From positions 1-22,209 of IMG/VR virus record IMGVR_UViG_3300027906_001959: a stretch of 22,209 bases of DNA. One strand, given 5' to 3'. Position numbers and translations under genes: made by a program. Shown here piece by piece: positions 7,793-22,209 of the stretch. The notes under the pieces were generated by a model that had not been told where the DNA came from, ran no database searches, and worked only from the letters and a program-made list of their open reading frames with translations. The stretch comes from a virus. Position 1 is the stretch's first letter. Each line of letters opens with the position of its first letter.

Positions 7793-7793
7793 T

Positions 7794-9152
7794 TTACTCC
7801 TGTGATTTTTTCTTATCAATTAACCATTCCAATTTCTTTTTATCGGTATCGGAAAGGTTCTCCATTCCAGAACTAGTCCCATACTTGTCCTTAACCCAAT
7901 CTTCCATCTCTGGTAAAACATCGGTAGGCATTGGTGATGGTTCTTCTTCTGGTATTATTTGCTCTTCAACTACTGTTTCATCAACTGTCATTGGTGTTAT
8001 GAGTTCTCCTTGCCTTTCCTTCCAACTAAGGTTGGCGGCAAGTACTAACACAATCGCCAATGGGTCAAATACAAACACTAGTAATAAAATAAGAAGTGTA
8101 ACGGCATTATCCACCGCACCAGCACCGCTGTTACCATAGAGCAACTGGGCAACATATTTAATCGGGCCAACTTCTTTTTCTATGTCCCTTACAATAGATT
8201 GTTTATCGAACAACTCTATATTGTACTCATCAATCTTTTCGTATGCACTATCAATTCTTTCTTGTATAGTGTCAATTTGTTCATCTCTGGATGCTTGGTC
8301 ATCAGCACCCTGTTCTCGTAATTTGTTTATCTCTCTGTTCGCACCATCAATGGTGTCCTGTACAGAACTTCTATAATCTTTTATCTGGTTACGATATCCA
8401 GCAATCTGGGTCTCTGCGTATCCCCTCAATTCGCCCATCTCCAGAGCAATCCTATCTCTCTCTGGTTTCTGTTCCTCGCGTACTTCTCTACCCTTCGCTA
8501 CATTATCAACTACTATGTCTCGTTGAAATGCGCCTGCATCCTGTGTGGTTGTCCCTTGGTCTGTGTATGACTTCACTATGGCATCAAGGGCATCTAATTC
8601 AGTCTGTTTCTTACTTAAATCTGACTCTAATCCTTCGCGTATCTTTGCAATTTGATTCTCTGCATATTGTACATCATCCTGTATTCTATTCCATGCTGTA
8701 TCTCGTATCTCTTCCTGTTGTTTGATACTCTCTGACACATCTAAAGTACCACCAGATTCTATTCTGGTTACTTGTTCCTCTGCTGTAGTGATTCTTAGGT
8801 TCTCTCGTTGTATAAGGTCTTCTATTCTTTCGACTTGTGCTACTGCGTCACCTGTAGACGCGGATTGGTCTAAATGTGCTTTAGATAGAAACCCAAATAT
8901 ACCTATGGATGTAATAACTGATAGTATAATCACGGCGGACACCATGTAACTTCGCATCAAGAAAGAAGTCTTCTTCCAATATTGGTACACCCACGAAGCA
9001 GTTACAAGTTTAGCAATTTCCAATACTATACCCATAGCAAGTATAGACTGTGGTAATCCACTAAAGATTGCCATCAATCCAACAATCGAGAAGTAAGCGG
9101 CAACTGCCGATACTGCGAGTGCTGAGAATAATAATCCTATTAAGTGTCCCAT
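7794..9152 (-). CDS. Four-helix membrane protein with long coiled-coil domain (452 aa)
   Basis: Three hydrophobic segments at about residues 4-30, 36-57 and 66-89 are followed by some 240 residues of charged heptad-like sequence (100-340), then a fourth hydrophobic helix at about 346-376 and an acidic Pro/Glu-rich tail of 76 residues. The general layout recalls DUF4407-type membrane proteins and coil-containing membrane proteins of T4-like marine phages. The coiled coil lies between membrane helices and would form a rod on one side of the inner membrane. The start at 9152 is preferred because GGAGG stands five bases before it, while the ATG at 9164 has no such site. It directly precedes the TonB receptor. 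Function unknown. Confidence 0.8.
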   Translation of the reverse strand: MGHLIGLLFSALAVSAVAAYFSIVGLMAIFSGLPQSILAMGIVLEIAKLVTASWVYQYWKKTSFLMRSYMVSAVIILSVITSIGIFGFLSKAHLDQSASTGDAVAQVERIEDLIQRENLRITTAEEQVTRIESGGTLDVSESIKQQEEIRDTAWNRIQDDVQYAENQIAKIREGLESDLSKKQTELDALDAIVKSYTDQGTTTQDAGAFQRDIVVDNVAKGREVREEQKPERDRIALEMGELRGYAETQIAGYRNQIKDYRSSVQDTIDGANREINKLREQGADDQASRDEQIDTIQERIDSAYEKIDEYNIELFDKQSIVRDIEKEVGPIKYVAQLLYGNSGAGAVDNAVTLLILLLVFVFDPLAIVLVLAANLSWKERQGELITPMTVDETVVEEQIIPEEEPSPMPTDVLPEMEDWVKDKYGTSSGMENLSDTDKKKLEWLIDKKKSQE

Positions 9153-9505: not shown

Positions 9506-9644
9506 CTGGTAATTCCTCACTTGTGGAATTACTATTTATGGTCTTTTCAGAACCCCATAATCTGTCCCATGCCTCTTCCTTGGGTACATCCTTGATTGTT
9601 GGTTTCTTTCTGTTGTAATTTATTACTTTCTTTTTATTCTTCAC
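9441..9644 (-). CDS. Small basic protein with GTG start, unknown function (67 aa)
   Basis: The GTG at 9644 stands behind TTAGGAG with a 9-base gap and overlaps the end of the methyltransferase gene. The frame stays open for 67 codons and overlaps the next gene by 65 bases. The first 22 residues are strongly basic; the rest is polar and charged with a WDRLWG segment. No family is recognised. The long overlap makes this less certain than its neighbours, but the ribosome binding site is good, and without it there would be a gap of about 130 bases in an otherwise tightly packed run. Confidence 0.55.
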   Translation of the reverse strand: MKNKKKVINYNRKKPTIKDVPKEEAWDRLWGSEKTINSNSTSEELPDGYEWNEKKTKIIQKESTEDS

Positions 9645-10233
9645 GATTAAATACTCCTAACCACATTTTCCCATTTTTGCCTGGCACCTTATTCTCATCT
9701 CTTCCAAGATAAAATGTAAAGTCTTCGTTACCAAGTACATCTTTATAGTCCCAGTATTTATCTAACTTCATGGGCGTTGTTTCTATAGCTCTTACGAAAT
9801 CGTCTTTACCAGCGGCCAAGTGTATCTTTAGAGGATGCTTGATACCTTTATCTGGCCATGCATTACCAGTTGTATTAAATAGTTCTTCACCAATACCATT
9901 TCCGCCTATTAAGACAGTAGGCCCTGTCTCAACTATTAATGTATCTGGTTCCGACTTATTGATAATTAATTCCAGTAAATGAAAAGGACTATGCAAGTGA
10001 TACAATAATCCCATACATGTTACTACATCAAATTTATCTACTGTTGTGTTGTAGTAGTCGTTAGCAGTACCTCTGAAAGTGGTTTTGCCAAATGGGTCTA
10101 CTGTTTCCACATGACTCGCACCAGCATTTTTAATGCAGTCGGTAATCCTAAAATTCAATGCACCAAGTTCCAAGACACTTTTGCCCTTGACTAAAGGAAA
10201 AACTTCATTTGTTAAAAAGTCTTCGTAATTCAT
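9634..10233 (-). CDS. Class I SAM-dependent methyltransferase, CmoB/Methyltransf_11-like (199 aa)
   Basis: Motif I is LELGALNFR (21-29), where SAM binds; an acidic residue after the second strand (D46) fits motif II. MGLLYHLHSP at 74-83 closely resembles the loop of CmoB-type methyltransferases and relatives, followed by a strand ending in IVETGP. The family normally methylates or modifies small molecules, sugars or tRNA wobble uridine. I infer no specific substrate. It is the last of three methyltransferases in this block, starts one base after the stop of the large glycosyltransferase-like gene, and has GGAG nine bases before its ATG. Confidence 0.78.
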   Translation of the reverse strand: MNYEDFLTNEVFPLVKGKSVLELGALNFRITDCIKNAGASHVETVDPFGKTTFRGTANDYYNTTVDKFDVVTCMGLLYHLHSPFHLLELIINKSEPDTLIVETGPTVLIGGNGIGEELFNTTGNAWPDKGIKHPLKIHLAAGKDDFVRAIETTPMKLDKYWDYKDVLGNEDFTFYLGRDENKVPGKNGKMWLGVFNREE

Positions 10234-10234
10234 A

Positions 10235-11335
10235 TTATGCTTCTCCGTAATTGCGGTATGAATACTTTCTAATCAACGCCTCAGGCAAACTCATCGTATC
10301 CACACTATGTTCCAGAAGTCTTTCATGAAGTGTCTGGTTTCTTGACTGAAACAAATTGTAATTGTGTTCAACCATTTCTCTAATTCCATTTTTATATTTT
10401 CTACAGTTATTAAAAAATTCCAATATTGCTTCCGCGAGGTTATCTCTAAGTGACCCGAAATTCATGTTTGGTATAGATGGTATGAACTCTAAAAATGTTT
10501 CATAACCCATATTCCTTAGATGGGGATAAGCTTCCCATTGTCCTATCAATATAAATGGATGTTTGTTGATTATAGGCATAAATGTTTTTTCTGTCAGCCA
10601 TGGAATGTAGTCTTCATTGAGATAATGTGAACCTTTAAATTCCGTTTCCGATATCAAACTAAAGAGGGTATTTTCATAAGTTTTAAAATCATATGGGAAT
10701 CCAGTATAGTGATAATTTCCTTCATTGAAAGCAACCCTGCCATCGATATCAATATCTCTTTCATACTCTCTAAGAGTTTCACACCCACTCCCTATTAGTT
10801 CATGACATGCTTGGTCAATGTCATGCCAGTATGGTGTATTCTTTTCTGGTAATCTAAATCCGTAATCAAATTTTTCCAATAAACCACTCTTTATTAAAAC
10901 ATCCAACATTACAGTCCTATGCGGTCTGTACAATTTGCCTGGCTTAAACAATGCCTTACTCGCGTCACTATTCCAAGAGTTCGCATGTGCATGACCATCA
11001 TATAAGTGCCTTAAAAATGTTTGGTACTCAAACCACTCTATCCTATCAAATCCCATCTTTGGTGAGGCAGTCATATTTGTAAGAAAAAGTAATTTCTCCT
11101 CTGGTCGAAACCCATACTCTACCATCATATCATATATTGTTTGTTTGTAACGAGAAAGTTCAAGACTGTCTTCAACTCTTTCATTCAAATAAAATATCAA
11201 CATTGAACCATCTGATACATTCAACCATTCGCGGAACTCCTTTTCTGGTGGAGGTAGATTTACAAAACTCCGAGTGTCTTTCGGTAAGTTGAAATGCCCA
11301 TAGTTTAATAAACCTAGACTATGTGTAAAATTCAT
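10235..11335 (-). CDS. Putative glycosyltransferase-like phage protein (366 aa)
   Basis: Two segments are recognisable from a family of uncharacterised proteins in marine phages. KLYRPHRTVMLDVLIKSGLL (134-153) resembles the HR-containing segment found there. WLTEKTFMPIINKHPFILIG (246-265), followed by LRNMGYETF, resembles the nucleotide-sugar-binding region of GT-B or exostosin-like glycosyltransferases. The first 100 residues match nothing I know. The start overlaps the preceding stop as TAATG. Together with the SDR, SGNH and methyltransferase genes upstream it suggests glycan or small-molecule modification, but glycosyl transfer is an inference and no DxD motif is clearly placed. Confidence 0.55.
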   Translation of the reverse strand: MNFTHSLGLLNYGHFNLPKDTRSFVNLPPPEKEFREWLNVSDGSMLIFYLNERVEDSLELSRYKQTIYDMMVEYGFRPEEKLLFLTNMTASPKMGFDRIEWFEYQTFLRHLYDGHAHANSWNSDASKALFKPGKLYRPHRTVMLDVLIKSGLLEKFDYGFRLPEKNTPYWHDIDQACHELIGSGCETLREYERDIDIDGRVAFNEGNYHYTGFPYDFKTYENTLFSLISETEFKGSHYLNEDYIPWLTEKTFMPIINKHPFILIGQWEAYPHLRNMGYETFLEFIPSIPNMNFGSLRDNLAEAILEFFNNCRKYKNGIREMVEHNYNLFQSRNQTLHERLLEHSVDTMSLPEALIRKYSYRNYGEA

Positions 11336-11517
11336 TAAGCACTAGGTAGGAATATCCAGACCTCTCCTGTTAACCACCATATAATAAAAACGAATGGTGA
11401 TGTTATTATTATGATTCCTATAATCTCAACTAGTAATCGTTTCCAGAAAGGCAGAGTATCTTGCCATTCTCTGTAGGGTTCCATCTTGTCATATAACCAT
11501 TTACTAAATCTTCCCAC
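11335..11517 (-). CDS. Small single-pass membrane protein with GTG start (60 aa)
   Basis: The GTG at 11517 stands five bases behind AAAGGAG, one of the best ribosome binding sites in the window, and it decides the start. Residues 1-28 are amphipathic and basic (WKRLLVE); residues 29-49 are a strongly hydrophobic helix with many Ile; the end is short (GEVWIFLPSA) and partly hydrophobic. It overlaps the preceding small membrane protein by 14 bases and is coupled to the next gene by TAATG. Small phage membrane proteins of this size include holins and antiholins, but nothing here is specific to those. Confidence 0.7.
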   Translation of the reverse strand: MGRFSKWLYDKMEPYREWQDTLPFWKRLLVEIIGIIIITSPFVFIIWWLTGEVWIFLPSA

Positions 11518-11818
11518 GATATCTCCTTTCTACTCCTTTGTAGATAAACATTCTCCACCAAGGCATTCGTCTTGGCATTTTCTTCATTGTGTATTCCCAC
11601 AATTGCCCTCCAGCATCTTGGTAAACACAATGGTATCCTCTCCACCGCCTACTGGCAACTGGAATAATCTTACCTTTAAATCCTTCTAATATGTACCTCT
11701 TAAATGAGTAATACCAACAATTAGAATATGGTATAAATGGTAGAATAGGCAACATGACTATCCCCAAAAATATCAACCATATTGTAACTAGTTTCTTCAG
11801 AGTCTTGCCATCCGCCAT
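11504..11818 (-). CDS. Small membrane-anchored protein, unknown function (104 aa)
   Basis: A hydrophobic helix at about residues 9-30 is followed by an aromatic stretch (NCWYYSFKRY) and a very basic, aromatic C-terminal domain rich in Arg, Trp and Tyr. With a cytoplasmic N-terminus the basic domain would face the periplasm; the reverse orientation would leave it in the cytoplasm, and the positive charges argue for the latter. It overlaps the methyltransferase gene by 22 bases and the 60-aa membrane protein by 14. No family is recognised. Confidence 0.7.
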   Translation of the reverse strand: MADGKTLKKLVTIWLIFLGIVMLPILPFIPYSNCWYYSFKRYILEGFKGKIIPVASRRWRGYHCVYQDAGGQLWEYTMKKMPRRMPWWRMFIYKGVERRYRGKI

Positions 11819-12516
11819 AAATTAAACTTCCACTTATAGTCATCACCATTCTTGATGTAACTATCTCCTTGTTTCGTGTAAAAATATTGTTCCGTAGTAG
11901 GAACTGCCCCTCTTTTGGGGTCTAGGTTATCTAAGTTTGCCATCAATCGTCTTGAAAAGGGAATCTCCTGTGAGAATATAATTTCCCCCTGTGTCATGAG
12001 TCCTGTAAAAATCATCATCAATTGTATCTTCTGTAGGTCTGACCATGATGTTGTGCATATGTACAACTCTCCACCCTTGTTTAAATACTCTGGTGAATTC
12101 TTGACTGCTTCACAGATTAAATCTGACCCTGTAGTATCTGCTGTTGGCACTCCTTCTGGAAACCAACCTGTCATCTCCGCGACTCTCCTGTCTACTCCAG
12201 ACACATCGCAACAAATGACATCATATTTACCTGTAACATTTTCAAAGATATCACTCTCAAATACTTCTATATCTACATCGTTCTTCTCTGCGTTTATCTT
12301 TGTGTATTCTATATGTTTATCGTACACATCGGTGGCAGTTACAGACTTAGCACCATTCTTTGCAAAGTATATTGATAGTGGGCCAACACCACATCCAAGG
12401 TCTAACACCTTTTTGCCCTCTACTGGTACTCTTGGGGCAGTCAGTTCGCTAACTGTAGTCGGTCTGAATACAGTCTCATCACATTCTAATTCGTAACCAT
12501 AGAAATCAACTATCAT
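11797..12516 (-). CDS. Class I SAM-dependent methyltransferase (239 aa)
   Basis: Motif I is VLDLGCGVGPLSIYFAKNG (37-55), a textbook SAM-binding loop, followed by TATDVY at about 59-64 (motif II acidic residue). The expected motif IV is CDVSG at about 98-102 instead of the NPPY of DNA and PrmC methyltransferases, so a nucleobase or glutamine substrate is not indicated. The C-terminal part has a long insertion before the final strands. It starts inside the end of the preceding methyltransferase gene behind AAGGA. The substrate is unknown; the fold call is firm. Confidence 0.85.
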   Translation of the reverse strand: MIVDFYGYELECDETVFRPTTVSELTAPRVPVEGKKVLDLGCGVGPLSIYFAKNGAKSVTATDVYDKHIEYTKINAEKNDVDIEVFESDIFENVTGKYDVICCDVSGVDRRVAEMTGWFPEGVPTADTTGSDLICEAVKNSPEYLNKGGELYICTTSWSDLQKIQLMMIFTGLMTQGEIIFSQEIPFSRRLMANLDNLDPKRGAVPTTEQYFYTKQGDSYIKNGDDYKWKFNLWRMARL

Positions 12517-13123
12517 TTTTAATCCTTATCGATATCATTTTTGACTCTGGGTATGAAGTTATCTCCCACCCTGTTTTATCTATAAACTCATCTACTGCTT
12601 TTTTGAGTCCTTCCCATTGCGTATGGTTGTAATCATCAACAACCAATACATTACCATCAACAGCAACCTCACTCCAGTACTGAAGAATATCTCTGGTTTC
12701 CTCATAACTATGTGAACCATCATAAAACATTATATCGGGACTGACTACTGGATAATCATAACCAAATTCCCATTTATCATCAATAAAGGTTATGTCCCTA
12801 CCCAGAATATTTCTATGTATCTCATCAAACTGTTCTTCTGCTGTACTTCTATTCGCATCACGCATTGCCTTGAAATTGTCATCTAGTCCCAACATCTCGA
12901 CTATTTCATCTGAAGGCCCTGTCCAACCCTCACACACATCCATTGTTAGTATGTGATGGGGTACAGTCCTCAATGCGTCATCAAAAGCAATAGCACTTTT
13001 ACCATATAGGGTTCCTATCTCAAACACCTCAACATAATCTCTGTTAAGGAACTCTGAACAAATCTTCTCTATGGCATCATAGTCACCATCCATCATCCAT
13101 CCGCGTATGTCATTTTTTTCCAT
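12506..13123 (-). CDS. Class I SAM-dependent methyltransferase, Methyltransf_24-like (205 aa)
   Basis: Residues 33-43 (VFEIGTLYGKS) give the SAM-binding motif in the form typical of Methyltransf_24 and macrocin O-methyltransferase-like proteins. Residues around 132-142 (MFYDGSHSYEE) provide the conserved DGxHxY segment of that group, whose Asp and His bind metal and substrate in O-methyltransferases. A LVVDDY strand follows. Such enzymes often O-methylate sugars in surface polysaccharides or antibiotics. It overlaps the SGNH gene by 14 bases and the next methyltransferase by 11. Good fold support; the sugar substrate is an inference. Confidence 0.82.
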   Translation of the reverse strand: MEKNDIRGWMMDGDYDAIEKICSEFLNRDYVEVFEIGTLYGKSAIAFDDALRTVPHHILTMDVCEGWTGPSDEIVEMLGLDDNFKAMRDANRSTAEEQFDEIHRNILGRDITFIDDKWEFGYDYPVVSPDIMFYDGSHSYEETRDILQYWSEVAVDGNVLVVDDYNHTQWEGLKKAVDEFIDKTGWEITSYPESKMISIRIKNDS

Positions 13124-13862
13124 GCTCTATTACCTCTAGTATTTTTTCTGAAATATATTTGTTTTGTTCTGCGCCTGTATGCATCAAGTCTCTGGCTAAG
13201 TTTTCCATTCCCTGTTCGCCAAACTTTGAAGGAGCGCCGTCTGGAATATCATAAAATTTAGAACCAACTCTAGAAGATACCATTTCTATAGCGTCTATGT
13301 TTTTTTGTCTATTGATATTTAGGTTGTCTTCGCTGGATACCCATTGAGAATAAAAGTCACCGAAATTAATATGTTCTGTTTTTGTATTATCATGTGCCGG
13401 CAAAAAACTATGCCAGTATTGAAAGTCAGGCTCCAATGGCGTGACTTTCATTTCAAACCTATATTCTGATACAACTTTGTGTATAACAATTTTTGGTTTT
13501 AGTATTGGTATCCAATAAGACCCAAGTCGATAACATGTATCATTTGACCCTCCAATAACGGCAAGATTACACAGATTCATTCCCAATGCTTCTGATACCA
13601 AATATGCCCAAGTTTTTTTAAGAGGAAGTCCAACGCCAACAGTATGACTGCAACCAAGAACAACTATATTATTATTGGACTCAGAAAAAGGAGGCGACCT
13701 AAACCCATATTCATTCATATCATATGTTATATCAACACCTTCCCATTGTTTCATGACTGTGGGATGTTCTAAGACATTCTTCTGATAATTCTCAAAGGAG
13801 TCTGTGGGCAACCATTTGGGTGATGTGTTTCTTAGAGCATACATACTTCCATCAATTTCCAT
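13110..13862 (-). CDS. SGNH-hydrolase-like protein (second copy, 250 aa)
   Basis: Block I is VVLGCSHTVGVGLP (67-80) with S72 as the predicted nucleophile, and the C-terminal triad is DLMH at 225-228 (D225, H228). The stretch DMNEYGFR (48-55) before block I and the LARDLMH ending are shared with the protein at 19523-20353, so the two are paralogs. SGNH enzymes are esterases or acyl transferases; the role here is unknown, perhaps acyl removal from glycans. The start is the ATG at 13862, which overlaps the SDR stop as TGATG; the frame could extend to a TTG but the overlap start is more natural. Confidence 0.82.
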   Translation of the reverse strand: MEIDGSMYALRNTSPKWLPTDSFENYQKNVLEHPTVMKQWEGVDITYDMNEYGFRSPPFSESNNNIVVLGCSHTVGVGLPLKKTWAYLVSEALGMNLCNLAVIGGSNDTCYRLGSYWIPILKPKIVIHKVVSEYRFEMKVTPLEPDFQYWHSFLPAHDNTKTEHINFGDFYSQWVSSEDNLNINRQKNIDAIEMVSSRVGSKFYDIPDGAPSKFGEQGMENLARDLMHTGAEQNKYISEKILEVIEHGKK

Positions 13863-14458
13863 CAATGCATCTCCATTTCTTGTATAGTTCCAGTTTCATC
13901 AAATACTTTTCTATTATATGACTCGTCAATTGTCATGATAGTATTATACATATCAGACGCCATGTCATCAACGGTCTTTTTATAAAAACTTGGTGCGAGA
14001 CAACAATAAATGCCATCTTTGTGTAGAGAAAACATTTTCATAAGTTCCACATTCATAAGTTTCAACCCAATGTATAGTCTAAACTGGTCAGCATAATCCC
14101 TCAACTGTTCTGGGTAATCTTTATTCACGCGGATGAATCCTGTCACAACCATGATAACTTTTGGGGATTTGGATTGTTTCTGCATGATATAGTATGGCAA
14201 CTGGTGATTGGTGAATAGAGTTTGATTCCATTGGTTTATGTCTATAATCCCATCCTCAAGATTATTAGGTAGAGCCCCACCATTTTGATTGAATACAATC
14301 AAATCAAAATCATCCTCCACAGTTTCAATCGAATCCATACCTCTAGTATCCCAACTGCCACTAATCTGAGTAATCTCATAGTTTTTTGATAGGTGTTTTG
14401 ATAGTTTCAAACCTACCCCATGTCCACACCCAACTAACAATGCTTTAGGCAATTCCAT
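13862..14458 (-). CDS. Short-chain dehydrogenase/reductase-like (SDR) protein (198 aa)
   Basis: The N-terminus is a Rossmann strand with LLVGCGHGVG (7-16), the glycine-rich dinucleotide-binding loop. FNQNGG (56-61) sits where SDRs carry NNAG. T106 lies on the strand that usually bears the catalytic Ser, and Y129-I-G-L-K133 is a YxxxK pair. These together support a distant SDR with NAD(P) binding; the protein is shorter than the usual 250 residues. The start at 14458 follows GAGGG with a 7-base gap and overlaps the radical SAM gene by 14 bases. It may act on a sugar or on the product of the radical SAM enzyme; the substrate is unknown. Confidence 0.7.
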   Translation of the reverse strand: MELPKALLVGCGHGVGLKLSKHLSKNYEITQISGSWDTRGMDSIETVEDDFDLIVFNQNGGALPNNLEDGIIDINQWNQTLFTNHQLPYYIMQKQSKSPKVIMVVTGFIRVNKDYPEQLRDYADQFRLYIGLKLMNVELMKMFSLHKDGIYCCLAPSFYKKTVDDMASDMYNTIMTIDESYNRKVFDETGTIQEMEMH

Positions 14459-15536
14459 ATAATCCCTCACCGTTAAATATTTGTTGCATGATTGGTTTCT
14501 GTGTTTCACTCAAGTTACAACTACCCACACAAGTCAAACATTTTTTATCTTCCCAATTTTCGTATACCCATCTGAATGGGTCACTATCTAGTATTTCTTT
14601 TAAAGACCACTCATTTAAATCTATCTTTTTATCTTTAAGAATATGATTGACCTGTGCCTTGTGATATTGACTGTTGTGTCTTGGATAGTGTCGCATATGT
14701 CCAAACATACAACAAGGCATCACTTCTCCCTTATGAGTCACTCTGATTTCCATACCATCTCGCAAAGAAAAACATTTTATTTCACCAACCGTATCTTTAT
14801 GCCATGTCTCTACCTGTTCTTGTATCTCAGTATAGATGATGCGGTTCGCCTTAGGTAGTGGATTTTTAATCTGTTCTTGATTAATCGGTTCTATTTCATA
14901 TATAACATTATAATCCGCATCTTTGACCAACATATTACTACCTTCAAATCCTTCTGGTAGTTTTATATTTACTCTGTCAAATCCCAAAGTGTCAGCAAAA
15001 CTCTTGACCTCTTCGACTTGATGTTCATTGTGTTTGAAAGTTAAAAAGTCCCAATGAGATTTGGCACCAGTAGACATATATGCACTCACATTTTTCATGA
15101 GTTTATCCCACTTCACATTTCTCCTGTAAATGTGATTGGTATCTTCCAGACCGTCAATTGAAAAAACCACCCACATATCATGTCCAACAAAGAGGTTGCC
15201 AAGTTGAGTCCAGAACTTATCGTTCTTCATGCCACCGTTTGTGTTTATTTGTATCCGCGTATCTGGGTTGATATTTATTGTGTGTTCTAGTATCTCAATC
15301 AACTGTGGATTGGTACAGGCGTCACCGTAGTCACCACTATAAGTCCAAAACCTTACTTGTTTTATAAAGTCTTCTGAAAAGTATTTTTTGAACTTCTCTA
15401 ATGAGATATATCCAACATCAATTTCTGGGTTAACATTGGTTGACATGTCAATATATCTTGGACACCACGGACAAGCGGCGTTACATACACTCGACACCTC
15501 TAAATTTACATGTGTAATGTCCTCATACTTCCACAT
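14445..15536 (-). CDS. Radical SAM enzyme with SPASM-like C-terminal cysteines (363 aa)
   Basis: C18, C22 and C25 form the CxxxCxxC that holds the [4Fe-4S] cluster cleaving SAM. YSGDYGDA (66-73) and INTNGG (97-102) fit later radical SAM motifs. The C-terminal part has C255, C275, C276, C333, C336 and C340, the set expected of a SPASM-type auxiliary cluster domain. Enzymes of this type modify peptides, sugars or cofactors. No precursor peptide is visible beside it. The start is the ATG at 15536, overlapping the deaminase stop as TGATG. Downstream come an SDR, an SGNH protein and methyltransferases, so a shared pathway is likely. It needs iron and sulfur from the host. Confidence 0.88.
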   Translation of the reverse strand: MWKYEDITHVNLEVSSVCNAACPWCPRYIDMSTNVNPEIDVGYISLEKFKKYFSEDFIKQVRFWTYSGDYGDACTNPQLIEILEHTININPDTRIQINTNGGMKNDKFWTQLGNLFVGHDMWVVFSIDGLEDTNHIYRRNVKWDKLMKNVSAYMSTGAKSHWDFLTFKHNEHQVEEVKSFADTLGFDRVNIKLPEGFEGSNMLVKDADYNVIYEIEPINQEQIKNPLPKANRIIYTEIQEQVETWHKDTVGEIKCFSLRDGMEIRVTHKGEVMPCCMFGHMRHYPRHNSQYHKAQVNHILKDKKIDLNEWSLKEILDSDPFRWVYENWEDKKCLTCVGSCNLSETQKPIMQQIFNGEGLYGIA

Positions 15537-15970
15537 CACATCTTCCTAACAATGACTCCAGATTTCTGTAGGAATTTTATTCCATCTTGTGTTCTATAAT
15601 CGCTCTCGTAAAAAACTGATATAATACCAGATTGGTATATTAATTTAGAACATTCTAGACATGGTGCGTGTGTGGTATATAATACAGCACCCTCAGAACT
15701 TTCTGAAGACTTTGCTACTTTAGCAATTGCGTTTGTCTCTGCGTGTAGTACTTCTGGTTTAGTTTTTAACTCTATGACATTGCCTGTCAATGCACCTCGT
15801 TTACTTGGATATTCACAATTGTTATCCCACCCAGACGGCGTACCATTATATCCTATAGATATTATTCTACTTTCTTTCACCAGAATTGCACCAACCTTTA
15901 ATCTTTTTGCTGGTGACAATCTTGCATATACTTTTGCTGTTTGCATATGCGCTCTATCAAATTTATCCAT
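15536..15970 (-). CDS. dCMP deaminase (144 aa)
   Basis: The zinc site is complete: H76-A-E78 (HAE) and P103-C104-L-E-C107 (PCxxC), and YNGTPSGW (41-48) is typical of the deoxycytidylate deaminase family. The enzyme turns dCMP into dUMP, the substrate of thymidylate synthase, which is encoded in the same run as ThyX. T4 encodes the same activity (gene cd). The ATG at 15970 overlaps the stop of the zinc-ribbon gene as TAATG; the frame could extend two codons to a TTG, which is less likely. Length is normal for a short phage form. Confidence 0.93.
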   Translation of the reverse strand: MDKFDRAHMQTAKVYARLSPAKRLKVGAILVKESRIISIGYNGTPSGWDNNCEYPSKRGALTGNVIELKTKPEVLHAETNAIAKVAKSSESSEGAVLYTTHAPCLECSKLIYQSGIISVFYESDYRTQDGIKFLQKSGVIVRKM

Positions 15971-16152
15971 TACCAATCCTCAATAATCTCTTCTTTATCC
16001 CAATCCTCCTGCTCTAGTTCTTCTTCAAGTTCTAGGTCACTACCACAAAATGTACAGTATGTAATACGGTAATGCGAGTCTGCCATATCATACTTTACCC
16101 TGTAAACAGCGTCACACGAGATGCACTCTACTAATTTTGAAGGTTTCGACAT
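15970..16152 (-). CDS. Small zinc-ribbon protein with acidic tail (60 aa)
   Basis: CISC at residues 10-13 and CTFC at about 33-36 form two CxxC knuckles, the expected ligands of a zinc ribbon. The last 20 residues are almost all Glu, Asp and Trp. The ATG at 16152 overlaps the nrdB stop as TAATG, and its own stop overlaps the deaminase start the same way, so it is translated as part of the nucleotide block. Small zinc ribbons of this kind often bind nucleic acid or polymerase, but the acidic tail argues against simple DNA binding. Function unknown. Confidence 0.75.
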   Translation of the reverse strand: MSKPSKLVECISCDAVYRVKYDMADSHYRITYCTFCGSDLELEEELEQEDWDKEEIIEDW

Positions 16153-17141
16153 TATACTGCAGCTGTCCCCCAAACATCATCCCACTTCCCTTGAAGCGCC
16201 CCCCTCGCATAATCGGTTGCTCTATTTTCAAAGAAATTTGTGTGTGTAGGTGCGTTAATCATTTCCTCTACCCATAGTAGCGGATTGCGTTTTACTTTAA
16301 ATATTCCTCTCATACCCAAACTAATCAATCTCCTGTCAGCAATGTATCGAATATATGTTTTAACATCTTCTGGTTTTAAATTCTCCATTGGGCCCATAGC
16401 AAATGCAAGGTCAATAAATTTCTCTTCTAGTTCTACCATGTTCTCAGCGATAGTGTATATTTCTCTTTTGAGACTATCTTTCCATAGTGTTCTATTTTCT
16501 TCTATGTATGTCCTAAACAACTTAATCATAGACTCAGCGTGCATAGTTTCATCCACAATAGACCATGTAATAATCTGACCCATACCTTTCATCTTACCAT
16601 GACGCGGAAAGTTCAATAACATAATGAAAGAACTAAACAACTGCATACCCTCAGTAAATGCACTAAAGGCGGCGATGTTAGTCGCAACACTTTCTTTAGT
16701 TCCATTTGCCTTCGATAAATCCATGAAGTACTCATGTTTGTCTGCCATCGCTTCATAGTCCAAGAATTCACTATATGTAGACTCTGGCATTCCAAGAGTT
16801 TCAATTAGATGTGAGTAAGCGGCAACATGCAATGCTTCTCTAGCGGCAAATCCAGATAACATCATTCGTATTTCTGGTTGCGGAAAATATGGCAGATAGT
16901 TAGTCACATATCCATCTGCCACATCTATGTCACCCTGTGTGAAGAATCGAAATATATTAGTAAGAAATGCTTTCTCTTCTTGTGATAATCGTTCTTTCCA
17001 ATCTTTTACATCTTCTGCCATCGGTACTTCAGTATGCAACCAATGAGATTGCTCATGTTTCAACCACGCCTCGTATGCCCAAGGGTAGTTAAATGGTTTA
17101 AAATATTCTCTTTTACTTGTTAAATCTTGTTTTGGGCTCAT
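16152..17141 (-). CDS. nrdB: Class I ribonucleotide reductase beta subunit (R2), NrdB (329 aa)
   Basis: The carboxylate and histidine ligands of the di-metal site are D71, E102, H105, E164, E198 and H201, and Y109 sits four residues after H105, where the radical Tyr is expected. Spacings D71-E102 (31) and E164-E198 (34) equal those of Escherichia coli NrdB. The enzyme therefore looks like a tyrosyl-radical class I R2 that supplies the radical to NrdA. The ATG overlaps the stop of the QueC-like gene as TAATG, behind GGAG. It needs iron (or manganese) and oxygen. No glutaredoxin or thioredoxin partner is present in this window. Confidence 0.95.
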   Translation of the reverse strand: MSPKQDLTSKREYFKPFNYPWAYEAWLKHEQSHWLHTEVPMAEDVKDWKERLSQEEKAFLTNIFRFFTQGDIDVADGYVTNYLPYFPQPEIRMMLSGFAAREALHVAAYSHLIETLGMPESTYSEFLDYEAMADKHEYFMDLSKANGTKESVATNIAAFSAFTEGMQLFSSFIMLLNFPRHGKMKGMGQIITWSIVDETMHAESMIKLFRTYIEENRTLWKDSLKREIYTIAENMVELEEKFIDLAFAMGPMENLKPEDVKTYIRYIADRRLISLGMRGIFKVKRNPLLWVEEMINAPTHTNFFENRATDYARGALQGKWDDVWGTAAV

Positions 17142-17782
17142 TAGTTCTCTCCAATATCTTCCTGTCTTATTTCTTTAAATGCCCATTCTCTTTCTTTACA
17201 CCACCAGCAATTATTACATCTGCCCCTGTCTAATTCGGTACAACTATGAGTAATAGGCGCAATCTCATTCGCTATACCTAAGTCAAATCCCAACTGCACT
17301 ATCGCATCTTTTGTCAATTCAGCAAAAGGTTGACTTAAATGTTTATGTTCTTCTGTCTTAACAAATCGGTCATTGGGTAGAGGATACCCCTCTGGCATGA
17401 AAGACCTTTGATTAGGCGGATACTTATTCACCGCACTAAACAAATGTTCTGCCAATCCCTTATTCCATATCTCATAACCACCACTAGTAACATAATCAGA
17501 TGGATTATCAGATGATATATCCCCTACGATGGTTGTCTTCGTTAGGGCGTGTCCTAGACGGTTTGAAGACCATTCTAAGACCTTATTTGCATAATGTTCC
17601 GCGCCATCTATCTTTGGTACGGTAAAGGGTTCACATTCTTGATTGCGTTCAATACATATGGATTTGACCATGTACCATAGAACGGCACTATCCCATCCAC
17701 CACTAACTAAAACCGCAATCTTCTTATTTAGTGGTATGTCTCTTTCTAACTTAACCCTCACAAGCAACACAGTCTTCACCAT
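17141..17782 (-). CDS. QueC/ExsB-like PP-loop ATPase with Cys4 zinc site (213 aa)
   Basis: SGGWDS at 27-32 is the PP-loop (ATP pyrophosphatase) motif, and C181, C189, C192 and C195 (C-x7-C-x2-C-x2-C) are the zinc site typical of QueC, the enzyme that makes preQ0, precursor of queuosine and of 7-deazaguanine DNA modifications. The middle differs from bacterial QueC: I do not find the PGRN segment, so the substrate may be different. It sits between nrdA and nrdB, overlapping nrdA by 32 bases and nrdB by one. The start is uncertain: the ATG at 17782 has only a weak AAGAG before it, and in-frame GTG codons follow. No queD, queE or transglycosylase is in this window. Confidence 0.75.
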   Translation of the reverse strand: MVKTVLLVRVKLERDIPLNKKIAVLVSGGWDSAVLWYMVKSICIERNQECEPFTVPKIDGAEHYANKVLEWSSNRLGHALTKTTIVGDISSDNPSDYVTSGGYEIWNKGLAEHLFSAVNKYPPNQRSFMPEGYPLPNDRFVKTEEHKHLSQPFAELTKDAIVQLGFDLGIANEIAPITHSCTELDRGRCNNCWWCKEREWAFKEIRQEDIGEN

Positions 17783-19535
17783 CTATCATACTCTTGAAAT
17801 CAATTTCTTTGATTACTTCTCTTTCAATGCGTTTCGATACCTTGTCTGCTTTCCCTAACTTCTCAGACCTACAGTAGTACAAAGTTTTCATACCTTGTTT
17901 CCACGCTAGATAGTGTATTGCATGTAAATATTTAATGTTAACATCTGGTCTAAAGAATAGATTAACTGACTGTCCTTGGTCAATCCATTCTTGTCTAGTA
18001 GATGCGTGTTCGACTACCCATCTCTGGTCAATTTCCATAGCAGTCTTGTAAATTTCTTTCTCTTTCTCATCAAGACATGTTACATGTTGTACTGACCCAT
18101 CGTTGGCAATTATCGATGACCAAATTTTGTCATAATCCAACCTTTTATTCTTCTCGCATTTATCTTTAATGATAATATCCAGATGCTTGTTCTTATTGAG
18201 ATGCGCTCCAGAAAGTGTGTCTTGCCTGTAAGCGTTTGCACGATAAGGTTCAATAGACGGCGAGGTGTTTCCCATAATAATAGAAGAACTAGCATTAGGA
18301 GCGACAGCCATAACATGACTAAATCTTCTTCCTGTCCCCTCCGCATCAATAGCTTCCCCTCTTTCTTTGCCCAGTTCAAAATTTGCTTCATCAAGTTTTC
18401 CTCTTATTAATTTAAACATTCTTATATTAGTGGATTTCGCCATGAACCCCTCAAACGGAATACTGTTCTTCTGTAGGTAAGCATGGAATCCTAAAGCACC
18501 AATACCTATACTGCGTTCTTGTTTAGCAGAGTAAACTGCCCTAGAAACTGTAGGCGGTGCGTTATCAATGAAATACTGTAATACATTATCTAACATCTCT
18601 GCGACATCTTTTAAGAATGTAGTACTCTTTGACCATGCATCATAGTGTTCTAGATTTACAGACGATAAACAACATACAGCAGTTCTACTTTCATTCGTAG
18701 GTAGAATAATCTCTGAACAAAGATTAGACTGATTTATCTTTAATCCCTTTTCCTTTAACCAATCTGGCATATGTCTGTTACTAGTGTCAACAAAATGTAA
18801 ATATGGTTCACCTGTCTCCATACGCATTTCAAGTATCTTCTGCCACAATGCTTTTGCCGATACTGTCTCGCGTACTTCTCCTGTATGTGGGTCTGCTAAA
18901 TTCCACCTATCATCAGCATCTGGGTCTGACATGCATTTTTCAATCATCTCCATGAACCTATCACTAATATTAATACCGTGATGTAGGTTTAGACATCTGA
19001 GGTTTTGGTCTCCTGTTGGTTTACGCATTTCGAGAAACATTGTAATATCGGGGTGACTAATGTCGAGGTAAGCGGCATAACTGCCCCTTCGTGTCTTACC
19101 CTGTCTATAGGCCAATGAACTTGAGTCGTAGGTTTTGAGATGTGGCAAGACACCAGTAGACTTATCATCACTAGCTCTGATACCAAACCCAATGCCAACA
19201 CCCCCACCAAGCATACTAAGCCAATTTGTTTCCGATAGATTTTCAACTAATCCCTCCGCTGTATCGTTAATATAATTTAAGAAACATGATATGGGCAATC
19301 CTTTATTCGACCTACCGAAAGATAATATCGGTGTAGAATAAGATAACCAATGTTTACTCGCGTAATCATACAATCGCTGGGCATGTTCATCATTTGATGC
19401 AAATGCCTCACTTACAAAAGCAAACCTTTCTTGAGGACTTTCTTCTTCCTCTTTCATGTAACTTTCTTTTAATCTTTGTAGTCCCAGTTTATCAAATAAC
19501 TGGTCTCTCTCTAAATCTATTTTTATTCCTGCCAT
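17751..19535 (-). CDS. nrdA: Class I ribonucleotide reductase alpha subunit, NrdA, without ATP-cone (594 aa)
   Basis: NrdA reduces ribonucleotides to deoxyribonucleotides. The visible active-site residues are C84 and C288, which form the redox pair, N271-C273-E275 in NLCSEI, and Y553-Y554 in LYYC, which carry the radical from NrdB. The C-terminal C589-x2-C592 pair is the shuttle that is re-reduced by glutaredoxin or thioredoxin. At 594 residues it lacks the N-terminal ATP-cone of about 90-100 residues, so it should not be switched off by dATP. The start at 19535 is chosen because AAGGA precedes it; the ATG at 19553 lacks a site. It overlaps the SGNH gene by 13 bases. Confidence 0.96.
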   Translation of the reverse strand: MAGIKIDLERDQLFDKLGLQRLKESYMKEEEESPQERFAFVSEAFASNDEHAQRLYDYASKHWLSYSTPILSFGRSNKGLPISCFLNYINDTAEGLVENLSETNWLSMLGGGVGIGFGIRASDDKSTGVLPHLKTYDSSSLAYRQGKTRRGSYAAYLDISHPDITMFLEMRKPTGDQNLRCLNLHHGINISDRFMEMIEKCMSDPDADDRWNLADPHTGEVRETVSAKALWQKILEMRMETGEPYLHFVDTSNRHMPDWLKEKGLKINQSNLCSEIILPTNESRTAVCCLSSVNLEHYDAWSKSTTFLKDVAEMLDNVLQYFIDNAPPTVSRAVYSAKQERSIGIGALGFHAYLQKNSIPFEGFMAKSTNIRMFKLIRGKLDEANFELGKERGEAIDAEGTGRRFSHVMAVAPNASSSIIMGNTSPSIEPYRANAYRQDTLSGAHLNKNKHLDIIIKDKCEKNKRLDYDKIWSSIIANDGSVQHVTCLDEKEKEIYKTAMEIDQRWVVEHASTRQEWIDQGQSVNLFFRPDVNIKYLHAIHYLAWKQGMKTLYYCRSEKLGKADKVSKRIEREVIKEIDFKSMIDGEDCVACEG

Positions 19536-20353
19536 TCTAGTTCCTTTTTCCATCTCTCTACCATAGCCTCATGAAAGTAGAGGCCTGGGTGCATTAGGTC
19601 TCTTGCTAATGCATATTTTGTATCTTTATTTTCTTCCCAATCCTTGTATCCTATTTCGTTTCTTTCTAATGCGGATACGAGTTTAAATTGAACCTTATTC
19701 ATGTCACACAATTCTTTTATTGCCATTAAGTTCTTGCGTCTGTTCAAATATCTCTCAGTTTTACTCTGGCATAATTCCTGTTGCCAATCCAAATCTGACC
19801 AGAACCCAATGCAAGTATTCCACTCTTCGTTGTTCTCATCAATATACCAAGTCTCTCTTGCTAGAGTACTATTCTCTAACATAAGAACTGCCTTGGGTTT
19901 TATTACTGGCAACCAAGTCAAAAGAGTTCTGAAACTAGTGTCTAGTCCTGTAGTACATAGTCCTAAGTTCCACACCTTCTTCTGTATACTTTTCTCCAGT
20001 AGGGATGTCCATGACATATCAGCAGGCAATCCTGTCCCATATGTAAAACACTCACCTATACCCACATAAGAATCTCTGTCTTCATGAAACTCATCGCATC
20101 GATACCCATAACTATTCAAGTCATAGAATATCTCTGTGTCTAACCAACCATACTTTATAAGTTTCTCTTTCTGGTTCTTTAGATTAGACTCGAAAGCATC
20201 AGCACTATCTGTAGAACTCCATTCTACTCTAGTTGCTTCTTTTAATCTCCTATTCCAAGGGAAGGCATAAGGAATCCTTTCCTTTACCTTCTCTATATCA
20301 GAATTCTCATCTTCTGCCTTTGCGAGGGCAACCGCTAACTGATTAGATATCAC
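19523..20353 (-). CDS. SGNH-hydrolase-like protein with Cys in place of the nucleophilic Ser (276 aa)
   Basis: The protein is a paralog of the one at 13110-13862: both have a D-L/M-N-x-Y-G-Y/F-R segment, then block I, then a C-terminal LARDLMH. Here block I reads GIGECFTYGTGLP (98-110) where the paralog has LGCSHTVGVGLP, so Cys102 stands at the Ser position (codon TGT). D252 and H255 (DLMH) are intact, giving a possible Cys-His-Asp triad. The start is a GTG at 20353 inside the end of thyX; I find no later ATG before block I. The gene lies between thyX and nrdA, an odd place for a surface enzyme. Activity is uncertain. Confidence 0.75.
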   Translation of the reverse strand: MISNQLAVALAKAEDENSDIEKVKERIPYAFPWNRRLKEATRVEWSSTDSADAFESNLKNQKEKLIKYGWLDTEIFYDLNSYGYRCDEFHEDRDSYVGIGECFTYGTGLPADMSWTSLLEKSIQKKVWNLGLCTTGLDTSFRTLLTWLPVIKPKAVLMLENSTLARETWYIDENNEEWNTCIGFWSDLDWQQELCQSKTERYLNRRKNLMAIKELCDMNKVQFKLVSALERNEIGYKDWEENKDTKYALARDLMHPGLYFHEAMVERWKKELEWQE

Positions 20354-21008
20354 TTTGTTTTACCGCCTTTGCTACATCTGGGAAATGACCTTCAATAATA
20401 TTCCAACACAATTCAGCAATCTCTGAGTGTTCTTTTTGCGTACCGTTGGTTCGCCTCAGTTGACAATAATGAATCCAAGAGCGTAGTGTACCAGCCATGT
20501 AAATCGTACTCATGGTATTACCTTCTGGTAACACCGCTCTTGCTTGTTCCTTGGCAATACCTTGTTTCAAGGCCCACTCATAAGACTCTTTAGCTTGATT
20601 AATAACCTTCATTTGTTGCATGTTCCAATCTTCAGCAAGAAGTTTATCGTCTGTTTCGATACTATTTTGCCTATTCTTTTCATCTTGCAATCTCGCTTCA
20701 CGAGTTATCCATTCTTCTGATACAGCATATCTCTGACTAAATTCTTGAAAAGAAAAACTACGATGTCTTAGTATTTGTCTACCAATATCTCGCGTGGTTT
20801 TTATTTCAATTGTCATAGAAACAATCTCAAAAGGAGACCAATGTTCATGCTTAATTAAATAAGCAAGTAACTTTGGTGCAGTTTTGGCATTCGCCTGATT
20901 CTCTGGGTTACTCACCCTAGCCGCATATGCAATTAATTCATTTGCGGAATGACAACCAGTTGAAGCTGAAGGCTGGGTCAAACCAACCAGACTCACTTGT
21001 GGTTCCAT
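20343..21008 (-). CDS. thyX: Flavin-dependent thymidylate synthase ThyX (221 aa)
   Basis: The ThyX signature RHRx7S is present as R81-H82-R83 followed by S91 (RHRSFSFQEFSQRY). KHEHWSPFE (53-61) is the conserved segment that precedes it, and RSWIHYCQLR near the end is also typical. The enzyme uses FAD, NADPH and methylenetetrahydrofolate to turn dUMP into dTMP; dUMP can come from the dCMP deaminase in the same run. Length is normal. The ATG follows AGGA with an 8-base gap. T4 itself uses ThyA, but many marine phages carry ThyX, often near nrd genes. Confidence 0.96.
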   Translation of the reverse strand: MEPQVSLVGLTQPSASTGCHSANELIAYAARVSNPENQANAKTAPKLLAYLIKHEHWSPFEIVSMTIEIKTTRDIGRQILRHRSFSFQEFSQRYAVSEEWITREARLQDEKNRQNSIETDDKLLAEDWNMQQMKVINQAKESYEWALKQGIAKEQARAVLPEGNTMSTIYMAGTLRSWIHYCQLRRTNGTQKEHSEIAELCWNIIEGHFPDVAKAVKQSDI

Positions 21009-21010
21009 AA

Positions 21011-21346
21011 TTATTTTCCTAGTTTATGATTATTACCTTCGATTGCGGATAATAAATCCTCAATCATCGCTTTTTTGGTTTTCCTTCGGTCAAGCTTAAT
21101 ACCTTTAGCTTCACCAAATTCATCGATTTTTGCTTTAGTTAATTTCTGCAATTCCTCGATTTTAAACATGTCGGTAGTCACACCTTCTACATACTTACCA
21201 TCTTTTGTGATGGCAGCAACCTTCTTAGAAGGTTTAGCAGCAGGCTTTGATTCAACTGGTTCTGAAGGTTTCAGATATCCAATAATCAACGCAACCGCGA
21301 CAATTACACCAAAAACAGCTAGGTAAATATATTCTTGTTCACTCAT
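21011..21346 (-). CDS. Membrane-anchored protein with C-terminal SAP/HeH-LEM-like motif (111 aa)
   Basis: An N-terminal hydrophobic helix (about residues 6-25) is followed by a Pro/Ala/Lys-rich linker (about 27-44) and a C-terminal helical segment, about 62-103, of the form LTKAKIDEFGEAKGI-x-KKAMIEDL. That pattern resembles the SAP, Rho-N and HeH/LEM helix-extension-helix motifs that bind DNA or RNA. The protein could thus tether nucleic acid to the inner membrane. It lies between primase and thyX, behind AGGAG. No family name is certain. Confidence 0.65.
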   Translation of the reverse strand: MSEQEYIYLAVFGVIVAVALIIGYLKPSEPVESKPAAKPSKKVAAITKDGKYVEGVTTDMFKIEELQKLTKAKIDEFGEAKGIKLDRRKTKKAMIEDLLSAIEGNNHKLGK

Positions 21347-21355
21347 ATTTTGCTC

Positions 21356-22209
21356 CTAACATTTTTTCCATTGGTTTAACAAAAACTTGGCAGTCAATCC
21401 ACTATGTGTATTACTACTAATAACATCGCGTACATCTATACCATCGTTCACCATATCATTTATATCTTTTTGAACAATCGTTTCTGGCCATATGACAACA
21501 TTATAATCCAAGTCAACATATTTTTCAACCAGTTTAACAACATCTTTGTTTCTAGGTTGATTGTCGAATACAACTGTAATCTTATCACGGTCTAGGTTCA
21601 ACTGTTCAATTTTGTTGAAGGATGTTCCAGAACAAGCAATACTGTTTTCAAGAAACAAACTGTCTATCGGGCCTTCAACAACCGATATGGGTTTAGACTT
21701 ATCAACTTTATCTAAACCGAATACTGTAGGTGCATCCTCTTTAACTTTAACTAGAATATACCTAAGCGTTTCCCCTCTCATAGCCCTCAGCGACACCGAC
21801 ATTAACTGCCCATCATGGTCAAAGAAGGGGATGACCAATCTGGGTTCTTCCGTTACAATCGATTTTATGTATTTGTCGTTGAGTTGTACTATATTTTTTA
21901 TGTTGTCAATATAATAAAGTCGATCCCATTTATCATTTGGGATATTTCTACTTTTCACATATTGAACTACTTCGTGGTCATATGGAAGTGTGTCCACCGC
22001 GTCCACGAGTTTATCAAATAAACTAAATTTTGGTGTAAATTTGGGCGGTTCTACTGGTTTATCATCGAACAATTTATGTCCGTTTGGAGTCCAGTTTGCA
22101 CCTTTTGGTTCCCAATTTTTGTTCTCATTCTCACCGAATTTTTCAAGACAATATTCTTTATGAGTAGTCGGTGCGAGTTCTTTGAGAACAGTATTCATGC
22201 TAGCACCAA
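21356..22209 (-). CDS. T4 gp61-type DNA primase, 5' end beyond the window
   Basis: The visible part aligns by eye with T4 gp61 over its full length: EEPRLVIPFFDHDGQ (117-131 counted from the first Met), the Toprim VVEGPIDSLFLEN (173-185, catalytic E175), VVFDNQPRNKD (209-219, D212), and the C-terminal GLTAKFLLNQWKK. The frame stays open through the right edge (codons for Gly, Ala, Ser before the first Met), so the Met at 22198 is probably internal and the N-terminal zinc-finger part lies outside. The enzyme makes RNA primers for lagging-strand synthesis with the gp41 helicase, which is not in this window. Primers would be removed by the RNase H encoded at 3440-4324. Confidence 0.9.
   Translation of the reverse strand, partial: GASMNTVLKELAPTTHKEYCLEKFGENENKNWEPKGANWTPNGHKLFDDKPVEPPKFTPKFSLFDKLVDAVDTLPYDHEVVQYVKSRNIPNDKWDRLYYIDNIKNIVQLNDKYIKSIVTEEPRLVIPFFDHDGQLMSVSLRAMRGETLRYILVKVKEDAPTVFGLDKVDKSKPISVVEGPIDSLFLENSIACSGTSFNKIEQLNLDRDKITVVFDNQPRNKDVVKLVEKYVDLDYNVVIWPETIVQKDINDMVNDGIDVRDVISSNTHSGLTAKFLLNQWKKC

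Follow-up and report, generated by a model that had tools for sequence, protein, structure and literature searches.

A gene belonging to a phage-specific branch of the QueC family of PP-loop proteins resides within the ribonucleotide reductase (RNR) operon of a 22,209-nucleotide stretch of viral DNA, record IMGVR_UViG_3300027906_001959 of IMG/VR, referred to here as the window. Members of this branch are characterized by a conserved ATP site and a cysteine-rich zinc-type site, lack the residues that make up the catalytic signature of QueC, occupy a slot of changing content between nrdA and nrdB in the window and its close relatives, and are statistically associated with radical-SAM genes. The gene probably performs chemistry other than the making of a modified DNA base. 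The best available explanation, held at even odds, is that an AMP-forming ligase with the QueC fold has been put to a new use in a phage system linked to radical-SAM enzymes.

Such a protein would be an ATP-pyrophosphatase in which SGGxDS, for ATP, and the four-cysteine zinc site of the fold are retained while the substrate pocket has been exchanged, so that preQ0 would no longer be made from CDG. ATP would be used to adenylate a carboxylate, or a similar oxygen, of a substrate; AMP would then leave and be replaced by ammonia or an amine, giving rise to an amide. The reaction would belong to a larger programme of modification or biosynthesis which the phage encodes and in which radical-SAM enzymes take part, and the gene itself would be cargo in the nrdA–nrdB slot, enjoying the expression of the RNR operon with no need for a function in ribonucleotide reduction.

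The gene and its place in the operon

The QueC-like gene (17141..17782) is an open frame of 213 amino acids from its ATG and lies on the minus strand, as do all the window features described here. It is preceded by nrdA, encoding the RNR large subunit (17751..19553; 600 amino acids as listed, C-terminus CVACEG; Pfam 353.8 bits, phrog_84), and followed by nrdB for the small subunit (16152..17141; 329 amino acids; Pfam 254.8 bits, phrog_86). Further upstream in the same gene run is thyX (20343..21008; Pfam Thy1 144.1 bits). Downstream, a small Cys-rich ORF of 67 amino acids overlaps nrdB (15970..16173) and is followed by a dCMP deaminase gene (15536..15976; phrog_174 173.9 bits, and Pfam) and, in the same overlapping run, by a gene for a radical SAM protein (14445..15539; Pfam Radical_SAM 39.4 bits). 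ORFs of the 67-residue type adjoin nrdB or the dCMP deaminase gene and are conserved in many loci, and a glutaredoxin ORF precedes nrdB in many loci (a cluster of 47 ORFs, with Pfam on one member). After the RNR operon comes one run of methyltransferase-like, SGNH-like and other cargo genes (9634-14509), the SGNH-like label being our own reading of the sequence. Elsewhere in this phage contig, an ORF with a TonB-dependent receptor plug domain is found (6203-7819; Pfam Plug 33.4 bits, cut-off 23.9).

The initial annotation described the gene as overlapping nrdA by 32 bases and nrdB by one. Both overlaps exist in the window: counted from the ATG the gene runs 32 bases into nrdA, which ends at 17751, and at its other end the TAA has a single base in common with the start codon of nrdB (17141). 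The longer overlap does not extend to the whole family: 34 of 46 distinct loci have the ATG which creates it and 12 do not, and the start of the gene is therefore uncertain. Part of the apparent N-terminal conservation of the QueC-like protein is accounted for by the codons of nrdA itself; since these overlapping codons inflate the conservation, the true start may be nearer the nrdA stop. We infer that the gene is co-translated with the RNR genes.

A first search of viral contigs disclosed 34 related loci, a number that rose to 76 with a profile. The location wedged between nrdA and nrdB, first recognized in the window, recurs in 74 of these 76 close relatives, the other two (L012 and L081) being cut by contig ends. 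Where nrdA is present (75 loci), the gene starts no more than 50 nt from the nrdA end in 71 cases and is separated from it by another gene in four. An alignment of 41 sequences, down to 26% identity, contains 22 invariant and 45 near-invariant columns: together with the 76 related loci, this conservation indicates that the gene is more than a chance frame. Three loci (L052-L054) have a radical SAM gene within the slot and show the order nrdA, radical SAM, QueC-like, second QueC-like, nrdB. In 50,697 cultured phage records, tblastn of the window protein gave no match at 1e-3 and the second QueC-like copy of L052 none either; the L065 version returned 31 matches at E up to 1 and, among the matches listed, most were annotated as QueC. 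A megablast search with window positions 12000-22200 had no match, and one narrow pattern scan of cellular genomes (11 stretches) disclosed no relative.

A QueC-type fold with the substrate residues missing

At the level of family profiles, the window protein scores above the curated cut-off of Pfam QueC (PF06508, aligned to residues 120-205: 38.4 bits against 22), matches the phrog_1550 'QueC-like' profile with 40.8 bits, and falls below the threshold of the NCBIfam QueC model TIGR00364 (28.4 bits versus 150.3). Against PDB sequences the protein alone had one match only, with an E of 0.86; the family profile found QueC at 0.0019 and ThiI at 0.0049, and a profile–profile alignment with QueC matched just 62 C-terminal columns. 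An AlphaFold2 model based on 41 sequences (pLDDT 90.5, pTM 0.90) had QueC 3bl5 as its best Foldseek match (E 1.5e-6), with Cap9 at 3.4e-5. VIA-align, run over Foldseek's top 1000 structures, placed Cap9 at Z 14.6 (157 aligned, 2.6 Å), QueC at 13.7 (163 aligned, 3.3 Å), a second QueC at 12.8 and QatC at 12.5, just above asparagine synthetase (12.2) and LarE (12.1). Scores with Cap9, QueC and QatC span 14.6 to 12.3, and those of other PP-loop folds are 12.2 and below. The two highest values are read as tied, and the predicted fold appears QueC-like by a small margin over other PP-loop enzymes.

The PP-loop and the Cys4 site attributed to the gene are both in place, as SGGWDS at residues 27-32 and as C181-x7-C189-xx-C192-xx-C195. 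Across the 77 family ORFs (49 distinct), SGGxDS is invariably present, as is PF followed by [TY]K; Cx7CxxCxxC occurs in 74 of the 77, and the canonical QueC spacing Cx8 in none. The family also carries marks of its own: TxPKxD is found in 77/77 ORFs, and CxxCxWCxERxW in 50/50 distinct nrdA-type proteins, in 52/58 distinct other relatives and in 0/6 QueC references.

The missing PGRN segment, likewise pointed out in the initial annotation, proved to be one facet of a broader loss. VPxRN is absent from the window protein, and YGQ, V[PT]xRN, YxDC and [ST]CY are each found in 0/77 family ORFs (49 distinct), whereas six of six QueC references have all four. Among 58 distinct distant relatives, five show YGQ and one [ST]CY; VPxRN and YxDC occur in none. 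These marks form the QueC catalytic signature as described in the accessible part of PMC13329287, which also reports that the Escherichia coli QueC mutants Y35A, R99A, Y131A and Y189A are inactive. In a tree of 40 proteins, seven QueC references split from 33 phage QueC-like proteins with support of 100/100, and the 14 nrdA-type proteins group at 89/87. On the missing motifs, the TIGR00364 score and the tree, we reject a canonical QueC. The early caution that the enzyme might act on another substrate is supported.

The high rank of Cap9 draws attention to a conjugase similar to Cap9 or QatC, which would attach carboxy-deazaguanine or another carboxylate to a protein N-terminus. The top Z-score of Cap9, tied with that of QueC, favours such an activity, as do the similar C-x7-CxxCxxC spacing of Cap9 (in the portion of PMC13329287 available) and QatC as a precedent for the loss of CDG residues (according to the available text of PMC13279940). 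However, neither the Cap9 mark YxDC nor the VPxRN loop is found in any of the 77 ORFs, no MG N-terminus was seen by eye in the NrdA and NrdB starts, and a search of 12 related contigs gave no genes for a source of CDG. A conjugase is accordingly unlikely, by our estimate somewhat more so than the RNR-serving role considered below. N-terminal glycine on the RNR subuni­ts was not seen in the NrdA and NrdB starts.

DNA modification, RNR function and the nrdA–nrdB slot

A role in 7-deazaguanine DNA modification had seemed attractive when the gene was first described, and a search for queD and folE in the rest of the genome had been suggested. The window phage is known by 22 kb only; the search covered 12 nrdA-type contigs (G001-G012) of 40-166 kb, possibly incomplete. 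No queD or folE emerged: the PTPS (QueD) and FolE families were found in 0/12 of them, and so was the TGT family PF01702, with positive controls in each case; the single QueC-family match in each contig is the QueC-like gene itself. The 9g proteins DpdA, FolE and QueD matched nothing below E 0.4 in the 618,660 bases of G001-G004 (best DpdA E 0.45); the match of the 9g QueE protein, at 3.7e-4, was to a gene of the radical-SAM type. The DpdA family profile phrog_887 was silent in all contigs, controls included. In the nrdA-type contigs, the QueE profile phrog_2076 gave only partial matches to radical-SAM genes, none above 33.4 bits, compared with 174.7 in G014.

The picture is different in two of three larger contigs harbouring distant relatives, G013 (303 kb) and G014 (231 kb), which contain FolE, PTPS and a QueE-like gene; a deazaguanine link is thus possible for those contigs. 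In G014 (L133:1480-9718), genes for FolE, a QueD-like and a QueE-like protein are accompanied by an ORF with the motif GDSGGFQ, and no canonical QueC was found in the contig, which has no QueC-family match beyond its two QueC-like genes. The GDSGGFQ ORF (L133:1480-3075) has no Pfam or NCBIfam match; its motif is known from transglycosylases.

The shortage of restriction palindromes, cited in favour of modified DNA, is real but may point the other way. The window contains no ACGT where 24.4 are expected and two GATC where 80.6 are expected. Analogous deficits are observed in G001 (ACGT 0 versus 184, GATC 34 versus 590), G003 (CGCG 0 versus 108) and G004 (CCGG 3 versus 73.6); G002 shows no such purge for any of the four tetramers tested. 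A phage that shields its DNA with modified bases would presumably have no reason to shed palindromes, and full loss of single tetramer palindromes is what would be expected of unprotected DNA. In our view the shortage therefore argues against protected DNA.

A true preQ0 or ADG synthase, taking CDG from the host to place a 7-deazaguanine in phage DNA, would fit the QueC fold, the zinc site and the pathway genes and GDSGGFQ ORF of G014, a contig exceeding 200 kb. It is nonetheless improbable given that all four QueC marks are missing, that the E. coli substitutions listed in the accessible part of PMC13329287 abolish activity, that FolE, QueD and TGT are found in 0/12 contigs, and that palindromes are purged. 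The modification role first envisaged is not supported. Lower still, and very improbable, is a booster of host queuosine, a tRNA modification: this role has been proposed for phages with pathway genes and no DpdA (available part of PMC6884629), but the QueC residues are missing here and no other pathway gene was found in the contigs.

The position of the gene raises the question of whether it serves the reductase, as a nucleotide-level enzyme which amidates or alters a nucleotide or base and thereby lets the reductase supply a modified dNTP for phage DNA, or which tunes the reductase. The nesting in 74 of 76 close relatives and the proximity of thyX and the dCMP deaminase gene speak for this role, as do Campylobacter phages of a group without DpdA that are reported to be highly modified by dADG (Hutinet et al., PMC6884629, in the part accessible). 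A different picture emerges when loci are gathered by the NrdA profile alone. Among the best 80 of 585 such loci, the gene stands between nrdA and nrdB in 29; three more contain it but do not extend as far as nrdB, 45 show nrdB and no gene, and three cannot be assigned, so that 45 of 77 informative loci lack it, at NrdA identities of 77-95%. The 45 gene-less slots comprise 17 gaps shorter than 50 nt and 28 filled with other sequence; SGGxDS was found in none of their gap ORFs.

The occupants of the slot, as seen in the gaps of L136-L211, are diverse. They include 2OG-oxygenase-like ORFs in 12 loci plus one, of which the two that were scanned match Pfam below its cut-off; a fatty-acid desaturase; ORFs for thioredoxin and glutaredoxin; and two families read as acetyltransferase- and sulfotransferase-like, which have no Pfam match. 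L170 has, next to its QueC-like gene, both an HNH endonuclease and an ORF resembling methyltransferases. On the NrdA tree the gene requires at least eight gains or losses, three of them forced by well-supported branches, and 0/500 shuffles gave a number as low. The nrdA–nrdB gap is a cargo site whose occupant changes or is missing between related phages, and nesting in the operon is therefore weak evidence for a role in RNR. The gene's absence from most informative loci, the empty or otherwise filled slots, the NrdA tree, the distant relatives that are not beside nrdA and the purged palindromes all tell against the RNR-serving enzyme, which we consider unlikely.

Association with radical-SAM genes and comparison with known systems

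The ligase reading draws on the neighbourhoods of distant relatives, collected with a profile headed by one of them (A5). Within the best 80 of 219 relatives, 66 loci were taken as non-nrdA: a radical-SAM ORF is present in 52 of these and absent from the locus in 14, and in 31 it follows the gene directly, in the same orientation. Counted as distinct proteins, the corresponding figures are 39 and 24 of 49. The two downstream partners scanned belong to the N_Twi_rSAM family NF033640 (329.6 and 392.3 bits, cut-off 170).

This family exceeds its cut-off in 24/24 hand-picked contigs that carry the QueC-like gene, as opposed to 1/10 NrdA-related contigs without it, the contigs being chosen by us and differing in length. 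For contigs of at least 60 kb the figures are 7/7 with the gene versus 1/6 without (Fisher p 0.005, confounded by descent). In 11 of 17 non-nrdA contigs, counted by hand, an N_Twi_rSAM gene begins about 60 nt or less downstream, a placement with P of about 3e-9 on gene density, the rows not being independent. A run of radical-SAM genes in G014 (L132:4832-19812) has two QueC-like genes among them.

Around nrdA the link is looser. With flanks of up to 4 kb, a radical-SAM gene is in the locus in 5/28 nrdA-type loci with the gene and 2/48 without, and the N_Twi_rSAM arrays of G001-G003 are located tens of kb from it. The radical SAM protein of the window (14445-15539) scores 46 bits against NF033640, far below the cut-off of 170, and is only a distant member. 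G019, of 125 kb, has nine N_Twi_rSAM matches, and no QueC-like gene was found in it. The search concerned, with the A2 profile in 12 nrdA contigs lacking the gene, found nothing and had no positive control of its own.

The array of G005 sits among genes for a desaturase, a UDP-sugar dehydrogenase and an NAD-dependent epimerase, and these neighbours make a glycan-type product as conceivable as a peptide one. As to a small conserved precursor ORF for a peptide product, clustering gave many short ORF families, possibly antisense or chance frames. Taken further, the phage branch marked by CxxCxWCxERxW may work with twitch radical-SAM arrays as a biosynthetic or modification machine of which the window gene is a dispersed member, a proposal to which slightly less than even confidence is attached. 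Family membership, the predicted fold, the missing QueC residues, the behaviour of the slot and the statistical link to radical-SAM genes are shown, whereas adenylation, an amide product and a pathway shared with the radical-SAM enzymes are inferred.

Such a machine, if true, would add to the uses that the QueC fold has in preQ0 synthesis, in Cap9 and in QatC, and a functional radical-SAM link would mean undescribed phage chemistry with a clear gene set. In surveys, queC figures among the common viral metabolic genes and is read as nucleotide modification (PMC9301287, in the part available); if a branch without CDG residues is counted as queC there, DNA modification may be over-inferred. No description of this QueC branch or of its radical-SAM link was found in the literature searched, most subscription papers being outside it.

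With QueC (PDB 3bl5, 2pg3) the family shares the PP-loop fold, SGGxDS, a Cys4 zinc-type site, a similar length and a conserved K before the C-terminal part; unlike QueC, it lacks YGQ, VPxRN, YxDC and [ST]CY, carries TxPKxD and CxxCxWCxERxW as marks of its own, and was not accompanied by queD or folE in any of 12 contigs. The 9g-type 7-deazaguanine DNA-modification systems also employ a QueC-family protein, whereas FolE and QueD were not found in those related contigs. Cap9 of type IV CBASS (PDB 9nto) has the best Z, tied with QueC, and a similar C-x7-CxxCxxC arrangement; in contrast to the phage family it belongs to host defence and has YxDC and VPxRN. QatC of qatABCD (PDB 9y01, 9y02) has a QueC core from which the CDG-binding Y and D have been lost (as stated in the accessible text of PMC13279940), but is about 400 amino acids long, versus 213 for the window protein, which is devoid of the N- and C-terminal extensions and falls short of QatC in size. 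On the radical-SAM side, the closest known counterparts are the radical-SAM cassettes of pelagimyophages, whose available description (PMC7029224) mentions no QueC-like gene, and the N_Twi_rSAM family, the one present in all 24 contigs tested with the QueC-like gene.
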